In this document: piece after piece, positions 7,751-31,031 of the stretch
How positions within the stretch are numbered: the stretch's first letter is position 1
How the letters are laid out: the number at the start of each line of letters is the position of its first letter
Source of the DNA: a virus
DNA length: 64,000 nt
Direction: 5' to 3' (one strand)
Virus record (IMG/VR): IMGVR_UViG_3300046744_000223
Location: 1-64,000 of that record
The notes under the pieces: generated by a model
What the model saw: the letters and a program-made list of their open reading frames with translations, nothing else
What the model was told of the DNA's origin: nothing
Databases searched by the model: none
Position numbers and translations under genes: made by a program

Positions 7751-10700
7751 TTATGGTGTAGAATTATCAGGTCTAATGTCTAATAATATATTTGATGAAC
7801 CGGCTACTGGATTTACTGTTGATATTATAATATAATCATCAAATCCATTTACTGCTGAATCTAAGGTTATCTTGTGTATATAACTTTGTTCAGTAGTACC
7901 TAATCCACTACCTATATCTGCGTTGTCAACAGCTACCTCTAAGTTAGAATAACCATTTGAATTGTAACCATCACCCATAATTGTAGGTACATTACTCATC
8001 GAAGACCCACTTGGGATAATTATAGCGACACGGTGTCCTGAATTCTTATTCATTCTACCAAAGGATTCGCTAATATCATATAAGTCACTCATTGATTTGG
8101 AATTCAACAAAGTTGCTGTATAAGAACTACCAAAACTATAAGATAGACTTGTTCCACCCAAACTTGATTGTATTATATCAGCAAATCCGAATCCACTATA
8201 TACAGTAGCGGTTGATAGTGTTGAAGGAACTGCGTTTGTTGCGGCTGAATATCCAAGGGTATTATTGTAGTTTGTAGAAGACAACCCAATATCATAAATA
8301 TAAACAATTGGGGATGCTGCTGGAACTGCTCCAATTGATGATGTTCTTGGGGTGTTTACAAAATCCTCACCATATGCATCGTTAACTGAGACCATGTAAT
8401 GTAAATCAGCTTGACTTGTAACTGAATTGTCAGCGGCGTTAATAAAGTATGAAGATGAGTTTACATTTTGTGAGTCCAATGCTACCTTAGATGCGTCTCT
8501 ACCACTAATAGAAGCGCTAAATGGTGTATCGTTTTCAGTATCACTTATAGTAAATGACCCCAACTTAGTACCGGCTGAAACAGGTGCGTTTACAGTTTCA
8601 TTACTAGCAAATGTTACACTTGGGTTTACATTATTTCTAACTTCAATTGTTATAGTCTCTGCCCCTGCGTTTCCATATTGGTCAACCCATGTTATAGGTG
8701 CTGTGAAGTTTGCTCCATTTACGTATGAACCACTTACATTATCTTCAATAGTTAATATACCAGTTGAAGTTACGTGTACAAGCGAACTAACAGTTGCAAA
8801 ATTTTGCTCGGATTGACCCCCATAATCTGGAGAATAATTTACAGATAGTTGTGCGGCTGAACCTATCCCATCGGTATCAGTTGTGATGTTAGAACCACTT
8901 AGTGCGGATTCTATTATGTTAAATGAACTTACAGTTAAACTACCACCACCTGCTTGTGATATGGTAATTGCATCAGAGTATACTCCTTGGTTAAATCCAT
9001 GTACATCTTTAACATTTGCGTTATAATTGTATGTTCCTGCTGCTAATGTTCCGTTTGCACGAATCTCAAATGAGTTACCACCAATATAAGATGACGAAAG
9101 ACTCGATGCGTTAGTACCACTTAAATTAAATGTGTTGATATTTAAAGAATCACTCTCAATATCACCCCATGTTAATGTGGTTAGCAATGCATCATCAATC
9201 GCTAAGTTTGTATTTAAATTAGCAGTGGTTTGTGTATCACTTGTTACACTTGGTGCGTTATTCGGAGTAACACTTATTGTGATTGGTTGTGAATTTGGAT
9301 TACCATATTGGTCTGACCATCCGATGGTCGATGTAATAGTGGAACCATCTACATTACTACTACCACTAATATTATTTCCAACTGTCAGTACACCAGTCGA
9401 TGAACCAACTGAGATAAATGGGTTGTCTGAAGTAAAGTTTTGTGCAACCGGCGACCCATAACTCGGTGAATACGTTACACTCAAAGTTTTAGCAGTACCA
9501 ATACCAGTTGTGGTATTTGTAATACCATCGCCATTTGTAGCAGATTCAATAATAAACAAATTACCAGGAGATGTTAGAGTACCATTGTCAGCTTGTGCGA
9601 TTGTGATGTCATCTTTATAAACACCAGTTCTAAATCCATGTTCATCTTTGATACTTGCTGTGAATGAAATATCTCCCGCCGATTGGTTACCATCTGCATA
9701 TAATCCAAAATTATTAGAACCATCGTATGAACTTGATAAGTTAGAAGCGCCAGTGCCTGTTAAAGTGAATGAAGATACATTCAATGCATCACCTTCAGTA
9801 TCAGTCCACTTTATAGTGGATAATAGATTACCATTAGTTGCCTGATTGGTATTTCTATTTGTAGAAGTAAGTTCTGCGGCTGTAGGGGCGTTATTGATTG
9901 TTAGAGTAATACTAACTGAACCACTACCTATGTTATCAAATTGGTCTCTATAAGTAATATTTGAACTAATTGTTCCTGGATAGTCATCACCACTACCACT
10001 AATGTTAGTCCCAACACTCACATTACCATTACTCGCGACACTAAGTTGTGCGTTCGATGATGTGAATGATGCAACTGCTGCTGAATTATATTGTGGTGAG
10101 TATGTTACTGACAACTTAGCCTGAGTTCCAGTTCTACCATTTGAGTTAGTAACAACATTATCACCAGTTTCAGCCGATTCGATTACATAAAATACACCAT
10201 TTGCACCAGGAGTACCAAGTCCCGCTTCAACGATTGTAAATGAAGAACCCGATGTTGAGATATTACCATAACTATCAGCGATACTTGCAGTAAACTCGTA
10301 AGTAGTAGACCCACTCAAATTGGTTAAAGCACTTACTTCATAAGCATCACTATTTCGTGATGCAGTTAATTGACCACTTGGGTCAGTAAATGAGAATTCA
10401 CTATGGTCAATAGTATCACCAATACCAAATTGAGGTTCCGTGAATGAAATTACACTTAATATATTTGATGGTCTAGCACCATTTGTGTTTAGATTAGCAG
10501 ATGTATCAGTAAATACGATTGAGTATGGCTGATTATCAGTAATCGTTAGAGTATGGTCTCTATATTGTTTTGTAGTTTCAAATGAAGTTTCAGATGCAGT
10601 GATTTGTATAGCCACAGTGTCACTATCTGCGAAGTGTAAGTTACCACTAATAGCAGTATCCACTTCAAGAGTTACACTTGAACCCGTATAACTTGTTGCG

Positions 10701-12946
10701 CTATTTTGTTGGAATCTAACATATCCACTTGGTACACTATTAACTTCCCACATTTGAGATACAGCTGAAGTAAATGTTATATCACCTGAAGCGTATCCAT
10801 TTGAATTGGTTGTTAAATTTTTTCCAGTCAATGCACCTTCGTGGACATAGTAAGTACCACCATTTACACCAATACTTGAAGCAGCATCGTCTGCGATTGG
10901 AATTGTAATCAATGCACTTGCAGAATCTATGTTATAAGCATCTCCGACATTTACTCTATACACATACCTATTTGCGATATCTGAGTTTAAGAGTACTGAA
11001 GACTTACGAGAAACAGCCCCTGCGATGTTCATTTCGAATGGGTCTGAGTTAGGGTCGGTTAGTGATGTACCCCCAAGAGATGACGTGATATTTGGATTTG
11101 AAATGTCACTTCCAGAATGGGCCGATACCAATGTAAAGTCCTTATACAATATTGTATTAGCAGGATTACTATTATCAGTAGCAGTAATACTACCAACAGA
11201 AGTACCATCCGATGAGTTTTCGTTTAAACCTGATAACGATTGATTTTGTATTCCTGGACCTAAGTTATCAACTACCTCTACTCTGAATGGTAGGTGTGTT
11301 ATATTTGCGACATCGTAACCTAATTCGTAATTTGCATCTGATGCAGTGATTATAAATGAGTATGACGTTAAACTCTCGTAATCTAAAGAACTTGTTACTT
11401 GAACAAGGTCTATATATTTTGATACTCCAGTCGTACCAATTGTAAATGAGAAGTGGTCAGTTCCTAAACTACCTGTTCTAATTGTTAGTGTATCACTATC
11501 GGTATCAGTAACATAGACTCTATATTGAGACTTAGTTTCAGCAGATGATGATTCATCTAAAGATGCGGTAAATGCCGTAATTGTATTTCCACTTACACCA
11601 TCAATTCTAAAAGATGGTGCTGAGTTTGGGGTTACACGAATGTATATAGTTTTTTCAACTACATTATTTTGACCATCGGTTACTTTAATTAAGAATGGGT
11701 GTGAACCTGATCCTGGAGTATTATCAGTATTCATAGCTCTACTCGAAGAAACCGTAGCTCTAACTACACCAGTAGTAGATACCTCAAAGAAGTTATCACT
11801 ATACGAGTCTTGAACTGCCCACGTTTGTGTATCACCCGGAGTAACATCGGTTGCTATAAGTTGACCAATAAATGCACTACTGCCAGTAAATTCAGGAATT
11901 GTAAATCCATGTGACGTAATTACAGGTGGGTCACCAAATGAACCACCACCGCCACCACCACTACCAAAGCCACTCGATGCAGCGGATGCTGATACAGCAG
12001 TTCTAAAGAACACAGATGCTGTGTCTAAGAATACAGTAGCGTCACCAGTATTAGCACCACCACCAATTCCATCACCTGCAATAACTGATGTGATATCACC
12101 AGAACCACCACCGGCTCCAAATCCACTTGCAGCAGCAGATGCTGAAATGTATGTATCGTCTATGATTGCTTGTACTTGTGCGGATGAGGATATATTACCA
12201 CTTGCGTTAGCTAACTCTACCCAATTACCACCATGAGCGAAATATGCTTTACCAGTTGCATGAACGTGAGCAAACATACCATGGTAACTTGCAGCATTTG
12301 GTAAGTCAGATAATTGAGAATAAACATTCCCAAAGAGGACTTTATTACCACCCATGTCTAAATCAGCTGATGTGATTTGAGTTGAACTACTAATTAATCC
12401 ACTTGGTACATTTGTTAGTTGTGTAAAATCAGATGTGCCACCACCAGCACCAAACCCACTTTCAACAGCAGAACGAGATACTTCGGTATCAAAGTTTGTG
12501 ATACTTGATGTATCAATCGAACCTGTAAATGAAGTTGCGGTAATAGAGCCAGTTACATCTAAATCTGCACTTACTTTGTATTTACCACCCACAGTAGTCC
12601 ATATGGATGAACCACCTCCACCACCTCCACCGGAAAGTGAGGATAAGTCAACTGTATTACCTTCGGTAATTGTTAACTCATTACTTGCTTGATTAAACGA
12701 AAGAGTTTGAGAATCAGAACCAGTATCATCGGTTAAATTTTCCAATGTATTAATTCTGCTATCGAATGATGCCGAATCATTTGGATATGTTACTTCTCTA
12801 AACCTATTATTAGCGGTTATAGCATTTTTTTGAAATGCTGAAATAGTAGTAGGTTTATTAGTTATTTGTGTATAGCTAACCTGGCTGGATGCTGAAATAA
12901 CTCCATAAAATGAACCACTAAATGAACCTGTGTAGTCAAATGACAT
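7751..12946 (-). CDS. Giant tail fibre/adhesin with tandem Ig/cadherin-like repeats (1731 aa)
   Basis: This is the largest protein in the window. The N-terminal 330 residues are low-complexity fibre sequence with Gly-rich linkers (FGAGGGSG, FGSGGGGGGS). From about residue 345 come cadherin-like modules (ENSSDGTSVGSITATDNSNP, TDTEGDAL, VKVTDGQNN types). Residues about 700-1500 contain tandem copies of a ~210-residue unit marked by IIESA...G, then LSVTYSPxY, then DQYGN. The last 200 residues are a non-repetitive C-terminal domain, perhaps the receptor tip. It has no Cys-rich region or membrane segment. A GGAG site precedes the ATG and a promoter motif lies 34 bases upstream. The role as a virion adhesin is inferred from architecture and neighbours. 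Confidence 0.8.
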   Translation of the reverse strand: MSFDYTGSFSGSFYGVISASSQVSYTQITNKPTTISAFQKNAITANNRFREVTYPNDSASFDSRINTLENLTDDTGSDSQTLSFNQASNELTITEGNTVDLSSLSGGGGGGGSSIWTTVGGKYKVSADLDVTGSITATSFTGSIDTSSITNFDTEVSRSAVESGFGAGGGTSDFTQLTNVPSGLISSSTQITSADLDMGGNKVLFGNVYSQLSDLPNAASYHGMFAHVHATGKAYFAHGGNWVELANASGNISSSAQVQAIIDDTYISASAAASGFGAGGGSGDITSVIAGDGIGGGANTGDATVFLDTASVFFRTAVSASAASSGFGSGGGGGGSFGDPPVITSHGFTIPEFTGSSAFIGQLIATDVTPGDTQTWAVQDSYSDNFFEVSTTGVVRATVSSSRAMNTDNTPGSGSHPFLIKVTDGQNNVVEKTIYIRVTPNSAPSFRIDGVSGNTITAFTASLDESSSAETKSQYRVYVTDTDSDTLTIRTGSLGTDHFSFTIGTTGVSKYIDLVQVTSSLDYESLTSYSFIITASDANYELGYDVANITHLPFRVEVVDNLGPGIQNQSLSGLNENSSDGTSVGSITATDNSNPANTILYKDFTLVSAHSGSDISNPNITSSLGGTSLTDPNSDPFEMNIAGAVSRKSSVLLNSDIANRYVYRVNVGDAYNIDSASALITIPIADDAASSIGVNGGTYYVHEGALTGKNLTTNSNGYASGDITFTSAVSQMWEVNSVPSGYVRFQQNSATSYTGSSVTLEVDTAISGNLHFADSDTVAIQITASETSFETTKQYRDHTLTITDNQPYSIVFTDTSANLNTNGARPSNILSVISFTEPQFGIGDTIDHSEFSFTDPSGQLTASRNSDAYEVSALTNLSGSTTYEFTASIADSYGNISTSGSSFTIVEAGLGTPGANGVFYVIESAETGDNVVTNSNGRTGTQAKLSVTYSPQYNSAAVASFTSSNAQLSVASNGNVSVGTNISGSGDDYPGTISSNITYRDQFDNIGSGSVSITLTINNAPTAAELTSTNRNTNQATNGNLLSTIKWTDTEGDALNVSSFTLTGTGASNLSSSYDGSNNFGLYADGNQSAGDISFTASIKDEHGFRTGVYKDDITIAQADNGTLTSPGNLFIIESATNGDGITNTTTGIGTAKTLSVTYSPSYGSPVAQNFTSDNPFISVGSSTGVLTVGNNISGSSNVDGSTITSTIGWSDQYGNPNSQPITISVTPNNAPSVTSDTQTTANLNTNLAIDDALLTTLTWGDIESDSLNINTFNLSGTNASSLSSSYIGGNSFEIRANGTLAAGTYNYNANVKDVHGFNQGVYSDAITISQAGGGSLTVSSFNIIESALSGSNITTDTDGIGSAAQLSVNYSPDYGGQSEQNFATVSSLVHVTSTGILTIEDNVSGSYVNGANFTAPITWVDQYGNAGAETITIEVRNNVNPSVTFASNETVNAPVSAGTKLGSFTISDTENDTPFSASISGRDASKVALDSQNVNSSSYFINAADNSVTSQADLHYMVSVNDAYGEDFVNTPRTSSIGAVPAASPIVYIYDIGLSSTNYNNTLGYSAATNAVPSTLSTATVYSGFGFADIIQSSLGGTSLSYSFGSSYTATLLNSKSMSDLYDISESFGRMNKNSGHRVAIIIPSGSSMSNVPTIMGDGYNSNGYSNLEVAVDNADIGSGLGTTEQSYIHKITLDSAVNGFDDYIIISTVNPVAGSSNILLDIRPDNSTP
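8905..10865 (-). repeat. Tandem ~630-670 base repeats inside the giant fibre gene
   Basis: The segment encoding the (I/V)IESA or VHEGA block recurs near 10845, 10175, 9542 and 8907, with spacings of about 670, 633 and 635 bases. Each copy encodes a ~210-residue Ig/cadherin-like unit that includes YSPxY and DQYGN-type motifs. The DNA has diverged but the protein pattern is clear for the last three copies; the first copy (near 10845) is the most diverged. Confidence 0.75.
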
Positions 12947-13779: not shown

Positions 13780-15378
13780 CTATGCGAGTGTTTCTAAACC
13801 ATTAACGTATACCTTACCGTAGAACTCACCTCTTACCATTTGCTTAGCGTAACGTGTCATTACACCTTTTCTTGGAGTGAAGTTTGTTGGGTCATATACC
13901 AACGGAGTCATGATTAATGGAATGTATGGAGCGTAAACTGCGCCAGTTTCCAAGAATTGAGCACCCTTGAAGCCCATCAATACGACATTAGATGTCAAAT
14001 ATGGGTTTTTGTATACTTGGTAACGATTCGCGAATGAACCTACTTGAGATACACCCATTGCGAATTGCATATCAGCACCAGTACCATTAGCAGCAAATCC
14101 TGGGATTGATTCCAAGATAGTTGCAACGTCAGGAGAAACTACCATAAAGTTAGCTCCACCTCTCATGGTCTTAGCATGAATTTGGTTAGATACTCTCTGA
14201 AGAACAGTACCAAGAGTTTGGAACCATTGTTGTTGAGTGTAACGTTGTACGTCATTTGCTGCAGGTGCAGTAAATGCTGAACCATTCCATGAAGAACCTA
14301 CTTTAGCAGACCAGTGACCTTCAGTCAATGCGTTTTCCATCAACATATCTAAGATTTCGAGGTCGATTTCTTGAGATACGTATTCAGACAACATTGAAGT
14401 CAATTCAGCTTCAGCATCAATACTATGGTAAGCGTTCAAATCTTGAGCGAATTCCGGCGTCCATTGTGCTTTCAACTTACGAGTCTTAGCAACGATTGGC
14501 ACAGAGCGTAGCTCTACGTTCAATTCTGGAATACCTATGTCAGCACCAGTTGTGTCTTCGAAGTCACCACGAGTGATGTCAGTTGGTTGTTTCTGATATT
14601 TAACAGTTACATTACCAAAGTCAGTATCACGAGCAACGAATACGATGTTTTCACCAGCTAAACGAGTGTACTCAGCGTAGTACTCGTCAACACCTTCAAG
14701 TGAGAATGCACGTGCACCTTCACTATCGAAGTTTGCGATAGACGCAGTTTGAATAGCAACAGTTACGAGGTCAGCATCGTGAACAGCCCATACTGATTGA
14801 GAGAATGCTGAATCATAGTTGATATCAGACATACCCAAAGATGCAGTAGCGTAAGCGTTTGCACCAACTGAAGTAGCTAATGCTTGAGCAGCAGACTCAT
14901 CTTCATTGATAGAGTATCCGAAACGACCTGCACCATAAAGACCTTCAGAAACATCACCAGCAACTTCGGTAACACCGAATACTGAGTCAGTTTGTGAATT
15001 TTTACCAGCACCAGTTTCGAAACCTGGCTGAGCAGTACCATACTTGAAGTCAAGATAGAATACAAGACCTGAAGGTAGGTTCATTGGTTGTACTGAGACG
15101 AATTCTTTTGCAGCGATTTCGCTGAAGATACGTCTTACTAATGGAAGAGCGACACCGGCCCACTCTTCAGAGTTTGCAGCAGTACCTGTGCTTGATGCTT
15201 CAGATACTAATTGCTTTGCTTGGTTTTCCAACAATGTAGCAATACTTGCTCTTTCGAAGTCAGCGTCAACGCCTTCCAAAAGACCAGTTTTTTCCCACTT
15301 GGCTACAAGGCCTTTAGCCTCTTCGCTCATTTTTTTGTTGAAACCAGCAGATTCGTTTAATAGAGAATTTGTGTTCAT
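13780..15378 (-). CDS. gp23: Major capsid protein, T4 gp23-like
   Basis: This is the main shell subunit. The 532-residue length is close to the T4 protein (521). The early motif EWAGVALPLVRRIFSEI and the VSVQPMNLPSGLVFYL segment near residues 95-115 correspond to the conserved gp23 region MVRRAIPNL...GVQPM. The N-terminus has SLLNE/S (residues 5-10), and QLVSE/A with Glu60, very close to the T4 maturation site (LTE/A, Glu65), so removal of a ~60-residue propeptide by gp21 is likely. AAAAGGA precedes the ATG. It follows gp22 by 30 bases and ends at a strong terminator. The sequence is distant from the T-even type. Confidence 0.95.
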   Translation of the reverse strand: MNTNSLLNESAGFNKKMSEEAKGLVAKWEKTGLLEGVDADFERASIATLLENQAKQLVSEASSTGTAANSEEWAGVALPLVRRIFSEIAAKEFVSVQPMNLPSGLVFYLDFKYGTAQPGFETGAGKNSQTDSVFGVTEVAGDVSEGLYGAGRFGYSINEDESAAQALATSVGANAYATASLGMSDINYDSAFSQSVWAVHDADLVTVAIQTASIANFDSEGARAFSLEGVDEYYAEYTRLAGENIVFVARDTDFGNVTVKYQKQPTDITRGDFEDTTGADIGIPELNVELRSVPIVAKTRKLKAQWTPEFAQDLNAYHSIDAEAELTSMLSEYVSQEIDLEILDMLMENALTEGHWSAKVGSSWNGSAFTAPAANDVQRYTQQQWFQTLGTVLQRVSNQIHAKTMRGGANFMVVSPDVATILESIPGFAANGTGADMQFAMGVSQVGSFANRYQVYKNPYLTSNVVLMGFKGAQFLETGAVYAPYIPLIMTPLVYDPTNFTPRKGVMTRYAKQMVRGEFYGKVYVNGLETLA

Positions 15379-17091: not shown

Positions 17092-18068
17092 TATTTCTTA
17101 ACCTTACCTTTTTTGATATCTCTTTCAAGTTCTTCTGCAGCTCTTAATACATCTACAACTGATATATTAATTGGTACTTGACGATATTTTGATATTTTAC
17201 GAACTGCCAACATCACAATTCTTTTTTCTTCGCTAGAAGCACCTTCTCCAATAATATCTTCGGTTACTGATTCAAAGTAAAGGTCAGACATCTTATCTTG
17301 AAGTTTAGGGTTTTTAAAATCAAACTGATACTTTTCCATTGCTCTTCTGGCTTTCAATGCCGATTTAGCAGCAACTACAAAGTATCCTTTTTTAGAACCA
17401 CCTAATTTCTTTTGTAGTTTATTTGCTTGGTCTTTAGTACCAATACCCTTTTGGTTTCCCTTTGGGTCTATTATTGAGTATTTGTTTTCACTTAGTATAT
17501 CAGTTAGTTTCATTGACGATTCTTCATTTACAGATTCTTTAGCGAATTCTTTAGCGTTTTCCTTGTCGTCCTTATCAACGTCTTTTACTGGAAATTCTTT
17601 ACCATCTACTTCGAACTCATCATCACCATTAGCAATTGCTTTCGCTCTTGCAGCGCCGAATTCGTTACCTTCTTTGATTTCGTAATACTTACCAAGAACT
17701 TCGCCCATCTCATCGTAACAAGACTCAAGTCTTTGTTGTAGGGTATTTACTTCTTTGATTGTATTAGTAAATACTTTGAATGACTCATTCATAGACTTCA
17801 TGTGTCTACCAACAGTTACCTTGTCAAACCAATCTCCAGTTTCCTCAAGAGTTACCTTGTGTGCAGTCTCTACAATACCTTTAATAGATTCGTATACTTC
17901 TGCCAAATTACCTGAACGGTAGATTGACTCACCGAATTTCTTGTATTCAGAAACAGCTTTAAGGAATTCACGCTTTTCTTCGTTAGTCATTCCCTTTTGG
18001 GTTTCTTCATCGTTTATCTTCATACGTTTGTATGTAGATTCGTTTAGTAGTTCTTTTAAATTTTTCAT
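17091..18068 (-). CDS. Probable internal head protein with gp21-type cleavage motifs (325 aa)
   Basis: The N-terminus MKNLKELLNE/S resembles the capsid-targeting peptide of T4 internal proteins (MKTYQEFIAE/A). Residues 1-175 are mostly helical and charged. A second targeting-like peptide, SSMKLTDILSE/N, sits at 185-195. It introduces a domain (YSIIDPKGN... KYQFDFKNPKLQDKM...) that is homologous to part of the 289-residue protein at 24739-25608, and both copies end at LY-ESV-(T/S). VNE/E near 182 and VTE/D near 270 also fit a hydrophobic-x-Glu rule. It overlaps gp21 upstream by TAATG. I infer a packaged or scaffold-associated protein; I see no enzymatic motif. Confidence 0.65.
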   Translation of the reverse strand: MKNLKELLNESTYKRMKINDEETQKGMTNEEKREFLKAVSEYKKFGESIYRSGNLAEVYESIKGIVETAHKVTLEETGDWFDKVTVGRHMKSMNESFKVFTNTIKEVNTLQQRLESCYDEMGEVLGKYYEIKEGNEFGAARAKAIANGDDEFEVDGKEFPVKDVDKDDKENAKEFAKESVNEESSMKLTDILSENKYSIIDPKGNQKGIGTKDQANKLQKKLGGSKKGYFVVAAKSALKARRAMEKYQFDFKNPKLQDKMSDLYFESVTEDIIGEGASSEEKRIVMLAVRKISKYRQVPINISVVDVLRAAEELERDIKKGKVKK

Positions 18069-18706
18069 TATACTCCAAAATCACATTCACAATATCCACC
18101 AACCTCACACATGATGTCTCTCATCATATTGTTAGCTTTATTGTATTTATAAGTATTCTTTTTAACAGTAACCGATTCGTTTATCGTACCCTCGTTTGTT
18201 GGTGAAAGAAATGCTCCATGAGTTGATGGGTTAGAAACAAAGTCCCAACATATCAAATCAAAGTCTTGTTCTACTGCGACGGTGTCTTCACCAATTTGTT
18301 TTACGGAACCCATACCTCTTGACGAGATACCAACAGTACACCCAGCTTTTACTAATTCTTGTAAAATCTTTCCAGCTGGTGTATTTAGTATTTCAACTGT
18401 TCCAACAACATCATCACCATTCCATGATACTTCACGGATAATGTGTGATGTGTTCTTTAATTCGACTACACCACTTTCAGGATGGTCCAATTCACCATAA
18501 GCACGATTCTCTTTGATTTCACGTCCTTGGTATTTCTTTACTTCACGTTCTAAGATGTTACGTGGATACACTCTACCATTTTGGTTTTTAGCATCAGCAC
18601 GTTGTAACACACCATTTACTAAGAAACGACCAGTCTGGTCCTTTGCTTCTTGTAACATAGTAGGTGTTACTTCAAATATCATTGTATCTACAAGTAGTTG
18701 TTTCAT
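18068..18706 (-). CDS. gp21: Prohead maturation protease, T4 gp21-like
   Basis: This serine protease matures the T4-type prohead by cutting after hydrophobic-x-Glu. I choose ATG 18706 (MKQLLVDTMIFEV..., 212 aa), one base after the stop of the 46-residue gene; a longer start at 18760 would lie inside that gene. Conserved features are NQNGRVYPRNILEREV (41-56), GELDHPESG with catalytic His75, and VGISSRGMGS with the nucleophile serine (128 or 129). T4 gp21 has RNKRLYPKRILEKAV, GELNHP and GVSSRGLGS at the same places. The C-terminal TINE/S may be an autocleavage point. Its position between portal and scaffold genes is canonical. Confidence 0.95.
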   Translation of the reverse strand: MKQLLVDTMIFEVTPTMLQEAKDQTGRFLVNGVLQRADAKNQNGRVYPRNILEREVKKYQGREIKENRAYGELDHPESGVVELKNTSHIIREVSWNGDDVVGTVEILNTPAGKILQELVKAGCTVGISSRGMGSVKQIGEDTVAVEQDFDLICWDFVSNPSTHGAFLSPTNEGTINESVTVKKNTYKYNKANNMMRDIMCEVGGYCECDFGV

Positions 18707-24738: not shown

Positions 24739-25608
24739 TTACCACTTACGGCAAGACCAATATCTAGCTTTATGTCTTGGTCCTGGATTATCACAATTGT
24801 GTCTTGCTCTAAATGCCTTACGTCTCGCAGGGTCATTCTTTTTGATAGACATAGTTTTACCCTTTGCTGAAGAGCCACCATGTCCAAAGTTTACCTTTAC
24901 AACATTTCCTTTTGGATTCTTTACATACACTTTAAACTTTTTAACATCACCTTGCATTGGCTTACCAAGTTTTACATCACGACCTTGATACTCTGCTTCA
25001 TCAAGTGTTGGGTTTAGTGCGTAGATGTCACTATTCTGCTCTTTATGTAGATTTAACATCTGAGAATATTCTTTCATAAAGTTTATGAAGTCATGTGTTT
25101 CTTCAATACTTTCTACATCATATTCTTCAATCACCTCATCACCTTCGTTTCTTCTCTTCTTAGAGTAGAGGTAGTCTTTATATAGTTCTTCATAATCAAC
25201 ACCATCTTTCTCATAATCTGATAACGCTTCAGTTGATACTGATTCCTTGTACAATTTAAACATCGAATCTCTGAACTTAGTATTACTAAGGTCTGACTGA
25301 TATTTTTTGATAAGTGATTGTGCTTTACTTAGGTTTTTCTTTGATACGATGTAGTGTGTTCCTTTACCTCTATATTTCTCAAAGGAATACCACATATTAC
25401 TTTCAAGACCCTTATCAACGACTTTACCATCTTTGTCAAGTATCATATATAATCCACTTGAATATGTAGCTTCATTTTTAAATGATGATACATATGGGTT
25501 GTCAATTACCTTACCCAGCTCAGTAGTAAAACCATACTTATCTTCCATAAAGCCTTTTACGTTATGGTATTCTTCTCTGATTAATTCCTTGAGTTGTGTT
25601 TTAGTCAT
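24739..25608 (-). CDS. Probable packaged multidomain virion protein (289 aa)
   Basis: Three parts are visible. Residues 1-125 start KTQLKELIREEYHNVKG and include a domain (YMILDKDGK... KYQSDLSNTKFRDSMFKLY) homologous to the 325-residue head protein. Residues 128-200 are an acidic helical spacer. Residues 205-289 form a basic C-terminal domain: KFKVYVKNPKGNVVKVNFG, then NDPARRKAFRARHNCDNPG, and an ARYWSCRKW end with paired Cys. I remember this last domain from many T4-like marine phages without a known function. TLDE/A (204/205), exactly at the last domain border, fits gp21 cleavage. It lies two bases downstream of the next polyprotein gene. Nucleic-acid binding by the C-terminal domain is an inference from its charge. 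Confidence 0.7.
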   Translation of the reverse strand: MTKTQLKELIREEYHNVKGFMEDKYGFTTELGKVIDNPYVSSFKNEATYSSGLYMILDKDGKVVDKGLESNMWYSFEKYRGKGTHYIVSKKNLSKAQSLIKKYQSDLSNTKFRDSMFKLYKESVSTEALSDYEKDGVDYEELYKDYLYSKKRRNEGDEVIEEYDVESIEETHDFINFMKEYSQMLNLHKEQNSDIYALNPTLDEAEYQGRDVKLGKPMQGDVKKFKVYVKNPKGNVVKVNFGHGGSSAKGKTMSIKKNDPARRKAFRARHNCDNPGPRHKARYWSCRKW

Positions 25609-25609
25609 C

Positions 25610-27406
25610 TTACTTTACCTTTTTAGCCAATGAGTAAAAGTCAATGTTGAATCTAAAACCAGCACCATCGTAATCTCTATCCACTTCAACTGGAACTTTA
25701 AGTTGTTTCTCAAGTGTCTTTCTCAATTCTTCTTTCACATCGACATCATTTTCAACTGCACCTTGGAGACCATCTAAGTCATTACCACTTGCAGCGATTA
25801 GGGTCAATCCCTTTGAGTCACCCATAACTTTAAAGTTTACTGAGTCTTTACCCAATCTCACTTTTGCTTCTTTGATGATACCTTCACCGAATTGTTTAAC
25901 CATTTTCTTTTGAACTGGGTTATTAGGTTTACCTGCGATTGCAGATACTAACTTCATTCTATCAGCAAGTTTACCTTTCTTAACGAATTGGTATACTTTC
26001 TCAATGTCTAATTTGTTATCATCAACAAACTTTTGGATAGCATCTTTATTCATGCCAGTCAAACCACCAATTTCCATTGCAGTTCTTGTTGTAGACTCAT
26101 TTACCTTTACACCAACGGGTTTGTTAGATTTTACAATCATACCCTTAGCACCATCTTTCTCAACCGATTTTAAGAATTTCTTAGCATCAGCTTCTTTTGC
26201 ATATACAGCTGATGATGGTTTTATATTTTTGTTAGGTAAATCTTTTTTGTCCTTAAACATCACTACAAATACTTTATCCTTAGCTTCGTTTACTGATTCG
26301 TCTACTTTATACTTGTAGATTACATCACTTCTATCTCTTAACTTAGTTTTGTTATTTTGTAAATCATAGCTAGGGTTTGCAGTAGTTGCTTTAGCAAACT
26401 TACCATTCTTTAAATAAAATGCACCAATACGAGAATTGTTATCATCGGTTACATAGAATACTGCGTTTTTCTTTTTCTTAGATAATGCAACAATATCAGT
26501 AAGGTTTTTAGCTTTGATGAATTTACCATATCCTTCGTTTACTGATTCATTCATATATTTCTTCCAATCTTTGTGTTCAGGCGCGAGTGCAGTACGACCC
26601 ATATTTTTTTTCAAATCTTTGTTCTGCTCTCTATTATCTGGATGTGCAATTCTTGATGCAAATTTGTTTTTCATATCTACATAGAAATGTGCTCCAAAGT
26701 AATCTATGATATAAGCACCCTTCTTACCTTTGATTGTATCATATTCGTTATGAAGTAATACACCAGGAACTTTCAATCCGATTCCTGAGTGACCTGATAC
26801 ATATTTGATTGGAGTATCTCTATACAGCTGATAGTAAGCGTGTCCTCTTTGTGGAGTAATCATACCTTCTTCTACTGATTCACTTTTCCAACCACCACCT
26901 GCTTTTTTGTATTGTTTTGCAGCCCATCCATTTGCGTATGCTGATGGGTATACATCAAACTTCTTCTTTGCTTGTGCTTTATAGTAAGACCATTTAGATG
27001 GGTTAGTTGGTACATTCTTCTCGTCCAATTGTTCACCCTCTTTAACTAATGACTCTTCAATTGATTCTTTTAGTGACATCAATCTATGTCCGAAAGACCC
27101 ACCAATTGACATACTTAGATAAAATGCAAATGCGTCAATTATATCGTGACCATCGTACTTTGCAGCTTTAGCAATAGCAATACCCTTACTTTCAATTACA
27201 TCTTCCATTGGTGTACCAATGAATTTCTTACCTGCTTTTGGAAAGTATTTACCTAATTGCTTTGCTTCACTATGAAAGTTAGCATCAGTTAAGGCGCCTC
27301 TCATAATCAGCATAACCGATTCGTGATGTTCTGGCGAATTCTTTTTCTCATCTTTTAGATAATCATCTAAAAACTTTTTAACTGATTTATTTAGTTTAGT
27401 ATTCAT
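25610..27406 (-). CDS. Probable packaged polyprotein with repeated ES-V-x-E junctions (598 aa)
   Basis: Several small domains are separated by near-identical junctions: SVEE/G (180/181), SVNE/G (291/292), SVNE/A (374/375), KVNE/S (437/438) and IIKE/A (513/514). Each fits a hydrophobic-x-Glu/small-residue rule. Domain 1 (1-115) is helical. Domain 2 (130-175) has KKKFDVYPSAYANGWAAKQY, a basic motif I recall from other virion proteins. Domains 3-6 are mixed alpha/beta, for example YVTDDNNSRIGAFYLKNGKF and KVFVVMFKDKKDL. The last (514-598) resembles a small alpha/beta fold. AAGGAG lies four bases before the ATG. I see no catalytic signature. A set of head-internal proteins made as one chain and cut by gp21 is the simplest reading. 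Confidence 0.65.
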   Translation of the reverse strand: MNTKLNKSVKKFLDDYLKDEKKNSPEHHESVMLIMRGALTDANFHSEAKQLGKYFPKAGKKFIGTPMEDVIESKGIAIAKAAKYDGHDIIDAFAFYLSMSIGGSFGHRLMSLKESIEESLVKEGEQLDEKNVPTNPSKWSYYKAQAKKKFDVYPSAYANGWAAKQYKKAGGGWKSESVEEGMITPQRGHAYYQLYRDTPIKYVSGHSGIGLKVPGVLLHNEYDTIKGKKGAYIIDYFGAHFYVDMKNKFASRIAHPDNREQNKDLKKNMGRTALAPEHKDWKKYMNESVNEGYGKFIKAKNLTDIVALSKKKKNAVFYVTDDNNSRIGAFYLKNGKFAKATTANPSYDLQNNKTKLRDRSDVIYKYKVDESVNEAKDKVFVVMFKDKKDLPNKNIKPSSAVYAKEADAKKFLKSVEKDGAKGMIVKSNKPVGVKVNESTTRTAMEIGGLTGMNKDAIQKFVDDNKLDIEKVYQFVKKGKLADRMKLVSAIAGKPNNPVQKKMVKQFGEGIIKEAKVRLGKDSVNFKVMGDSKGLTLIAASGNDLDGLQGAVENDVDVKEELRKTLEKQLKVPVEVDRDYDGAGFRFNIDFYSLAKKVK

Positions 27407-28742: not shown

Positions 28743-31031
28743 TTAAAAATACATTAAACCAAGGATTTGGTTGAGTGATGCAAATGTACCTGTAAGTTTC
28801 ATGGTGTATCCTTTATATGCGAATACCAATCCCTCATTTGGAACAATCTTATCTCTACCACCTACGGCTTTTAGTCTTTCTAATTCTAATTTTAATTTTT
28901 CAATCTTTTTTGGGTCGCCTGATTTCCTAACGTCTTTGATGGTTTGGTCGAGTCGTTTTTGCATTGCACGAAGAGCTTTGTCTGGATTTACAGTTAAAGC
29001 TGATGACATAAAGGATAATACCTCGGCACCTACACCTAAGAATATATCTTCAAACTTACGTATGTTTTGTTTGGATATTTTAATTTGGTCTATTTTATCA
29101 GTCTTCTTTGCCCAATCTAATGTTTTAGAATCAGAAATGTTTTTCTTATCCAAACGGAATCCCTTATCATAAAATGCCCAACGTTTAACAAGACCCATTT
29201 TGGTTTTGTTGTCTAATGAAGATGGTGAGTTTTTATCAACATACTGTTCCCACCAACGTTGATGGTATTCAGCTACACCATCACTATCTTTAAGTTTAAA
29301 TTCTTTTTGAACTTTAGATAATTGACTAAAGAACTTTGATTTCATTTTTGATAGTTCTTGATTCTTTGGGAGAGTTACAACCGGAGGGCCTTGTATTGTA
29401 TATGCATCTTGTACATCCGCATTTACTTGTTTAATCATACCGGCTAAGATTCTTGCATCAGAGGTGTCTGCTCCAATAGCTTCACCTTTTTCGTTGTATT
29501 CCATAGTTCCATGAAATACTAATAGGGGTTGACCATATGGTACTACGTTTACTGACTCCGGCCAGATGACTTCGATGTTCATAAACTTTGAACCATTCTT
29601 GAAGACTTTTTCTTTTTGTGCTTTTGATAGTTTTGAAATCGCAGATTCCAAATCTCTCATAGCGAAATTATACGCATCGGTCAAACCACCTCTATTAGCA
29701 AATTTATCTGAAACACCCTTAATGTCTAATGCATTAAGTCCTTTATCTTTTAGATGTGATTTATTTCTTGCAGCGATGATACCTTTGTCACTTCTATATG
29801 ATATAGCAAGTGCTTGTCCATCGGTTTTTTCTCGTGTAAATTCTAACTTACCATTTAGAGCGTTATCTATTATTATTTTTAAATCACCAAATGTAAGGCC
29901 TAACTCAATATCAAATGGGTGATTCATATGACCATATGCACCACCTTCATTAAGAATACCTTCTTTTAGATTATTTTTTTTATCTTTAGTTTTTTCATTA
30001 TCAATTTTAGAAGTAAGATTTTCAATATCCTTTGGTTCAGCAAACTTAACGAATTCCATACCCAAACGAAGGGCAACTTTCTTAATATGTTTAGCCCACT
30101 TTTTATATCCTGGTCTGCCGGTTACATCCGTTCCATATCTCGCTTTCTGACCATCCATGGTATCACCACTTGGAAAAAATGATACCGGATATCTACCAGA
30201 CCCATTAGGGTATGATGTATCAAATGACTCCATGGAATCATCATCCATTAGGTATGATATAATTTGCCAACCTAATGTAGAAGTTACATCATTCATCTCT
30301 TTCTTAAAAGTTTTCATATTACCATAGAAAGCGCCAGGACCATCATCTACTATACCCTTACCACTTGGTGGTAATGATGAAGCTTCGGATAACATTTCAT
30401 TAATATCAAATGTTTGTAAGAACGATTCCATTACGGATTCTACTTTTATTAAACGACCTGAAACTAAATCATAAATCTTTTGGTTGAACTTTGGGTATAC
30501 TGACTTGAAAAACTTAATACGAGATTTCTCATCCGAATCAGACATACCTTTACGAACTTGAGTACCAGATATTCCGTTTCCTTGTGATGGGGATACATAA
30601 ACATAACCAGCATCAGCATAACCCTTTTCTACCTTACCCTTATATGGTTCAAAGTATTTACCACCCAATCTACTCTTGTCCTTCTCACCAACTACTGTGA
30701 TAAATGCAGTAGTCTCTTCTGAAAATGATTGTAGAATCTCTTTTGGTGAATATGGGTTTTTTACCTTTACTATTTTATTTTTGGGAATACCAAACATAGT
30801 AGTCATTATCTTAACTTTCTCTTTGAAAGTGAATGGTGACTTTGGTAATTGTACCTTATCAGACGTACCTATATACACATTATCTTTACCAAACTTTTTA
30901 ACTAAGTGTTGGTATGTTGCGTTATGGCCAGAATGGAATGGATGAAACCTACCTACGTAAGTTACCACTGTTTTTTTAATGTCTTCGGTAAGGATTGATT
31001 CCGTTACCCATTCGTTTATTAATTTTCCCAT
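28743..31031 (-). CDS. Nucleotidyltransferase-polynucleotide ligase fusion, probable packaged polyprotein (762 aa)
   Basis: Domain 1 (about 20-200) is a cytidylyltransferase-like nucleotidyltransferase of the NMN adenylyltransferase type: VTYVGRFHPFHSGH with HxGH at 33-36, and ISGTQVRKG at 154-162. Domain 2 (217-350) is unknown. Domain 3 (363-762) has the covalent nucleotidyltransferase motifs of ATP-dependent ligases: EKTDG with Lys402 (motif I), FMNIEVIW (motif III, near 483), EGLVFAY (733, motif IV) and MKLTG (744, motif V). The junctions are ILTE/D (16/17), MLSE/A (216/217) and ILNE/G (362/363), all of the gp21-type pattern and all at domain borders. The likely activities are NAD synthesis and nucleic-acid end joining. 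DNA versus RNA specificity cannot be told. No clear OB-fold is visible. Confidence 0.8.
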   Translation of the reverse strand: MGKLINEWVTESILTEDIKKTVVTYVGRFHPFHSGHNATYQHLVKKFGKDNVYIGTSDKVQLPKSPFTFKEKVKIMTTMFGIPKNKIVKVKNPYSPKEILQSFSEETTAFITVVGEKDKSRLGGKYFEPYKGKVEKGYADAGYVYVSPSQGNGISGTQVRKGMSDSDEKSRIKFFKSVYPKFNQKIYDLVSGRLIKVESVMESFLQTFDINEMLSEASSLPPSGKGIVDDGPGAFYGNMKTFKKEMNDVTSTLGWQIISYLMDDDSMESFDTSYPNGSGRYPVSFFPSGDTMDGQKARYGTDVTGRPGYKKWAKHIKKVALRLGMEFVKFAEPKDIENLTSKIDNEKTKDKKNNLKEGILNEGGAYGHMNHPFDIELGLTFGDLKIIIDNALNGKLEFTREKTDGQALAISYRSDKGIIAARNKSHLKDKGLNALDIKGVSDKFANRGGLTDAYNFAMRDLESAISKLSKAQKEKVFKNGSKFMNIEVIWPESVNVVPYGQPLLVFHGTMEYNEKGEAIGADTSDARILAGMIKQVNADVQDAYTIQGPPVVTLPKNQELSKMKSKFFSQLSKVQKEFKLKDSDGVAEYHQRWWEQYVDKNSPSSLDNKTKMGLVKRWAFYDKGFRLDKKNISDSKTLDWAKKTDKIDQIKISKQNIRKFEDIFLGVGAEVLSFMSSALTVNPDKALRAMQKRLDQTIKDVRKSGDPKKIEKLKLELERLKAVGGRDKIVPNEGLVFAYKGYTMKLTGTFASLNQILGLMYF

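Follow-up and report, generated by a model that had tools for sequence, protein, structure and literature searches.

Polyvalent proteins of phages and plasmids carry 2-15 diverse effector domains per chain, for which delivery alongside the DNA and separation by proteolysis have been suggested (Iyer et al. 2017, PMC5512222). In phage T4 the head protease gp21 cuts after L/I-x-E, and the T4 cargo proteins bear N-terminal targeting propeptides of 10-19 aa (PMC9026906). Among cyanophages, virions of S-SM1 were found to contain the core cluster T4-GC190 (PMC3037559), and a cytidylyltransferase is present in S-CREM2 virions (PMC10665884). Here we describe a 762-aa protein encoded on a stretch of 64,000 nucleotides of the IMG/VR virus record IMGVR_UViG_3300046744_000223 (positions 1 to 64,000, referred to as the window). 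We consider it likely that this protein is a modular precursor of virion cargo, that the head protease cleaves it in trans and the pieces are then packaged and ejected, and that its ligase most likely seals RNA. Fold, motifs, modularity and site statistics were established by computation.

The open reading frame and its gene neighbourhood

The ORF is intact with an ATG start, and near-identical or related ORFs were present across many IMG/VR contigs. It is located on the same strand as a T4-type head cluster of the window consisting of major capsid protein (MCP), gp21-like protease, portal and terminase (Table 1). The genome encoding the 762-aa protein harbors both a gp21-type protease and a matching capsid substrate site: the protease aligned with T4 gp21 in its H and S blocks, and LVSE/A of the MCP (the slash marks the predicted cut) aligned with FLTE/A of T4 gp23.

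All motifs named in an initial annotation of the ORF were found in place. This included a gp21-type motif at every border of the protein (ILTE/D at residues 16/17, MLSE/A at 216/217 and ILNE/G at 362/363), the position of which was backed by relatives. Taken alone, the number of [ILVM]xE[AGS] motifs in this protein was marginal (5 versus 2.0 expected, p ~0.05). The border motifs were also common to distant relatives, and judging from these sequence comparisons their placement at the borders is not due to chance. With 16 aa, the N-terminal tag is within the T4-type propeptide form (about 10-19 aa, ending with L/I-x-E), and 30 of the 32 distinct relatives having the NMNAT module first showed a tag with [ILVM]xE. 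The P1' residue of the first site, which is D here and A in T4 IPIII (MKTYQEFIAE/A), speaks against a cargo precursor.

Further ORFs of the window contained similar motifs. Two adjoining ORFs (24739-27406) resemble a second mosaic cargo protein, and their modules (24739-25608 and 25610-27406) are fused and rearranged in relatives, with one chain of up to 844 aa. A 1731-aa protein (7751-12946) showed 8 [ILVM]xE[AGS] motifs versus 3.0 expected, several of them as repeated IIESA-like strings, which are possibly internal repeats rather than cut sites.

The large terminase subunit (TerL) of the window was 57-58% identical to TerL of Microcystis phage Mel-JY01 and Flavobacterium phage immuto. In Mel-JY01 a gene for NMNAT plus ligase, with an IIAE/GG site, lies a few kb upstream of the terminase gene, and a gene for ribosomal protein S21 (rpsU; contig L081, 22183-22410) was found near the prohead protease in its head cluster. 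Immuto, a cultured phage of Flavobacterium sp. LMO8 and hence a good laboratory model, encodes a 907-aa chain (immuto26A_183; contig L257, 2106-4829) with a different module set and with LAE/A just before the NMNAT domain. Pol-beta-like, NMNAT-like and HExxH-like segments of this chain are parted by LxE sites.

Table 1. Features of the putative cargo-polyprotein locus and of the head gene cluster, with positions in the window.
Feature	Position	Strand	Basis or remark
Putative cargo-polyprotein ORF	28743..31031	-	762 aa; related ORFs in IMG/VR
Putative capsid-targeting tag, residues 1-16 MGKLINEWVTESILTE, ends ILTE/D	30984..31031	-	relatives' tags; T4 IPIII comparison
HIGH-superfamily nucleotidyltransferase (NMNAT/cytidylyltransferase-like), residues 17-216	30384..30983	-	PF01467, PHROG_395, NCBIfam
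MLSE/A site 216/217	30381..30395	-	same kind as MCP LVSE/A; LxE kept in most relatives
Module D2, residues 217-362, with invariant DDGP	29946..30383	-	alignment of 55 sequences
Tandem sites NLKE/GILNE/G, residues 354-363	29943..29972	-	ILNE/GGA; junction conserved among relatives
Ligase-fold module, residues 363-762 (K402xDG, R422, E487, E733-G734, K745)	28746..29945	-	motifs, AlphaFold2, Foldseek
gp21-like head maturation protease	18068..18706	-	ATG start; listed ORF reaches 18760; PHROG_207 E 3e-52
Major capsid protein, LVSE/A near residue 60	13780..15378	-	PHROG_138 E 2e-71
Second mosaic protein, ESVNE/[AG]-rich	25610..27406	-	11 [ILVM]xE[AGS] vs 1.65 expected

The modules of the 762-aa protein

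For residues 17-216 a nucleotidyltransferase had been proposed from HxGH and ISGTxxR, and this fold was supported by both motifs (GRFHPFHSGH at residues 27-36 and ISGTQVR at 154-160), by a match to Pfam PF01467 above cut-off (22.9 bits) and by PHROG_395 (E 5e-14). None of the NMN adenylyltransferase equivalog models matched this module above cut-off. They were the nearest curated models, at scores far under their cut-offs (28.6 versus 127 bits; 26 versus 181), and the archaeal NMNAT model of NCBIfam matched residues 25-78 only (9e-7).

The covalent ligase suggested by the initial annotation was borne out for residues 363-762, in which all motifs of the ligase superfamily (I KxDG, III, IV EGxV and the lysine of V) were present as EKTDG (401-405), FMNIEVIW (483-490), EGLVFAY (733-739) and MKLTG (744-748). 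Residues E39, K40, D42, G43, R60, E125, E371, G372 and K383 (numbered within the module; protein numbers are higher by 362) were invariant across 36 diverse ligase sequences. Structure prediction, which had been suggested as a check for each segment, gave a ligase fold for this one (AlphaFold2 pLDDT 87, pTM 0.82) and no confident fold for D2 (pLDDT 63). The first five residues of the ligase model (GGAYG) were disordered, as expected for a cut end.

The 26 best Foldseek matches to the PDB were all covalent ligases, mostly RNA ligases. They were headed by archaeal RNA ligases and T4 Rnl1, and several were ASFV DNA ligase. Against an RNA ligase stand the modest values of these matches (E from 0.011, i.e. 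only ~0.01; probability mostly 0.5-0.97; low whole-chain TM) and the motif V sequence KLT, in which the usual second lysine is replaced. The low TM is plausibly caused by ~245 mostly helical residues that separate motif III from motif IV. A Pfam scan of the module returned no ligase family and weak chance matches only, there was no profile match to the RNA ligase family PF09414, and a PDB sequence search with the module profile gave no match. In one relative (L072, 3700-5100) the ligase gene is interrupted by what is putatively a split intein, and its two halves flank an ORF for a Vsr-like homing endonuclease. The insertion falls precisely between the K and the T of the KTDG motif and provides independent evidence for an active site there.

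Relatives and the sites between their modules

Scans of viral contigs yielded at least 540 relatives of the ligase module, ranging from a lone ligase preceded by a short tag and a site (MKFLKSYEEFLNENLILE/GG in L083 and MALLSYTQFLNE...LLNE/GG in L165) up to chains of >2400 aa (L163). The 762-aa protein is a short member of this large family of shuffled polyproteins, for which >35 architectures were counted and in which the order of modules differed between members. Encoded upstream of the ligase were NMNAT-like and D2 modules, a 107-aa module, a 50-aa module, a Zn-ribbon and a basic domain, and further HD, CCA-adding enzyme, P-loop kinase, GNAT, DUF5661, Zn protease and ParB-like segments. The CCA-adding module showed PDB matches to E 4e-33 and NCBIfam matches to 2e-52. 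A Pfam scan detected no peptidase domain in the 762-aa ORF, and among the relatives PF05618 was found in L233 only.

Among 19 non-redundant members, the density of [IL]xE[AGS] was 1.17 per 100 aa around homology breakpoints versus 0.07 elsewhere (17.6-fold), compared to 0.5-1.1-fold for control motifs (D, K, Q or N at P1; reversed motif). Within 15 aa of a breakpoint were 69 of the 79 sites, versus 20 on average and 37 at most when breakpoints were shifted (2000 circular shifts). As homologous borders enter these numbers repeatedly, the counts per module on distinct contexts are the stricter test. Here, a site was present upstream of NMNAT in 37/45 contexts, of D2 in 36/37, of HD in 10/10, of CCA in 8/8 and of the P-loop module in 11/11, compared to 3.7% of windows inside modules. 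The minor modules GGQ and DUF5661 had fewer upstream sites. The D, K, Q, N and reversed-motif controls rule out that the LxE strings merely represent charged linkers.

At the junction directly before the ligase, P3 was I or L in 238/238 cases and P1 was E in 227/238, with eleven residue types at P2. As far as can be read from sequence, fixed P3 and P1 with a free P2 is the specificity of T4 gp21. The 11 exceptions (nine LLM, two LLC) run against this pattern. LLC junctions were found only in L152 and L164, which carry HNH and ROS/MUCR-like zinc-finger modules immediately before the ligase. One lineage (L189, L195, L203, L212, L213, L216, L220, L245 and L246) showed LLLM right before GGAYGH, and in L220 the other borders keep LxE despite LLLM at the ligase junction. 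Inside 27 ligase modules [ILVM]xE[AGSD] was seen 5 times versus 32.9 expected, while control motifs were not depleted.

Nucleotidyltransferase and ligase were almost always encoded in one chain among family members, and in cyanophages a nucleotidyltransferase adjoins a KxDG protein, so that a functional link between both enzymes is likely. This would also fit a bifunctional enzyme that stays uncut and whose fused parts cooperate in the cell, e.g. in cofactor regeneration, with the LxE strings as linkers. We regard such an enzyme as unlikely, because the sites follow the protease specificity and are depleted within the ligase, ligase-only genes retain tag and site, and unrelated modules of up to ~1100 aa intervene between nucleotidyltransferase and ligase in relatives.

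Proposed function and comparison with known systems

For the cargo precursor, which we prefer, we infer cleavage, packaging, ejection and the substrates of the modules as follows. The short N-terminal tag would direct the chain into the prohead core, like the capsid-targeting sequences of T4, and the gp21-like head protease would cut behind [L/I]xE both at the tag and at every module border. The freed nucleotidyltransferase, D2 and ligase would be packaged and ejected with the DNA. At an early stage of infection the ligase, acting through a covalent lysyl-AMP at K402, would most likely seal broken RNA, e.g. tRNA cleaved by host defences. Delivery with the genome, as already proposed by the initial annotation, is the explanation that best fits the gp21-type sites, the T4-like tag and the head-protease context. 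An RNA-repair kit is suggested as a possible cargo by the RNA-ligase-like fold and by sister proteins with CCA-adding, HD and kinase modules. Weighing against this part, the genome record is without a CCA partner module, and CCA and HD are missing from most family members. Elsewhere in the genome record, which may be incomplete, no CCA enzyme, canonical RNA ligase, ATP DNA ligase or NadV was found.

The earlier interpretation of the cargo as an NAD-rebuilding enzyme together with an enzyme that joins ends of nicked DNA draws on the NMN adenylyltransferases as nearest curated models and on ASFV DNA ligase among the fold matches. However, the NMNAT match is weak and covers 54 residues only (28.6 versus 127 bits), the genome record holds no NadV, RNA ligases dominate the fold matches, and the partner modules in relatives are of tRNA type (CCA-adding enzyme, HD phosphohydrolase, P-loop kinase), which makes both the NAD metabolism and the DNA end-joining quite improbable. 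That the enzymes were domesticated to serve as structural proteins inside the head or core, with catalysis unimportant, would agree with an ORF amid head genes and with T4 core proteins that are likewise cut into several pieces (PMC9026906), but is very improbable given catalytic residues invariant in 36 diverse sequences and an intein in L072 at a position typical of active sites.

More tentatively, and at somewhat less than even confidence, we suggest for T4-like aquatic phages in general that cargo polyproteins consist of interchangeable cassettes, that the gain of an [L/I]xE-bordered cassette suffices for virion loading, and that, with no phage gene yet expressed, host RNA is repaired by a kit of ligase, CCA-adding enzyme, HD, kinase and nucleotidyltransferase.

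The ligase module shares the fold and motifs I, Ia, III, IV and V with the RNA ligases Rnl1, Rnl2 and Rnl3, but differs from them by the ~245-residue helical insert between motifs III and IV, by KLT as motif V and by the lack of a Pfam RNA_ligase match. A similar pair of genes is found in cyanophages, where the cytidylyltransferase gene comes after the gene of a KxDG...EGxV...KL(V/T) protein of family DUF6267. In the P-SSM7 record, the cytidyltransferase is T4-GC190 and adjoins DUF6267 (T4-GC71). Most of the eight cyanophage cytidylyltransferases examined start with a T4-like tag (e.g. MKKFSAFLTE/A, MITFHVFITE/A and MKRFLQFLSE/A), while two short ones are without, and in some cases the tag is on DUF6267. 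As in the 762-aa protein, a nucleotidyltransferase is thus placed beside a protein with ligase motifs, and the cyanophage cytidylyltransferase has been seen in virions. Unlike here, the two are separate genes, and DUF6267 is tied to the ligase module by motifs alone, with a negative hhalign comparison (probability 0.3) that counts against the cargo reading.

T4 IPI-III and Alt likewise carry an N-terminal tag ending with L/I-x-E, are cut by gp21 and are ejected into the host. They represent one cargo protein per gene, whereas several enzymes with internal sites are encoded per chain here. The closest known kind to the ligase-family polyprotein are the polyvalent proteins, which also combine several unrelated effector domains in one chain and shuffle them among relatives. 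For these, cutting by an embedded metallopeptidase (MPTase) was proposed, while in the ligase family nearly every module border has a site and the sites match a separate head maturation protease. The novel part is this proposed processing scheme, in which a head protease would cut an enzyme polyprotein. No account of a head protease that processes phage cargo polyproteins turned up in the literature searched, which speaks only weakly for novelty, since many journals were not covered. If true, the scheme would explain the large multi-domain 'cytidylyltransferase' proteins among head genes and predict exact N-termini for dozens of uncharacterized cargo enzymes, and what phages inject besides DNA would become directly testable by virion proteomics. 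It would represent a tailed-phage counterpart of the polyproteins of eukaryotic viruses, with the capsid protease as processing enzyme.
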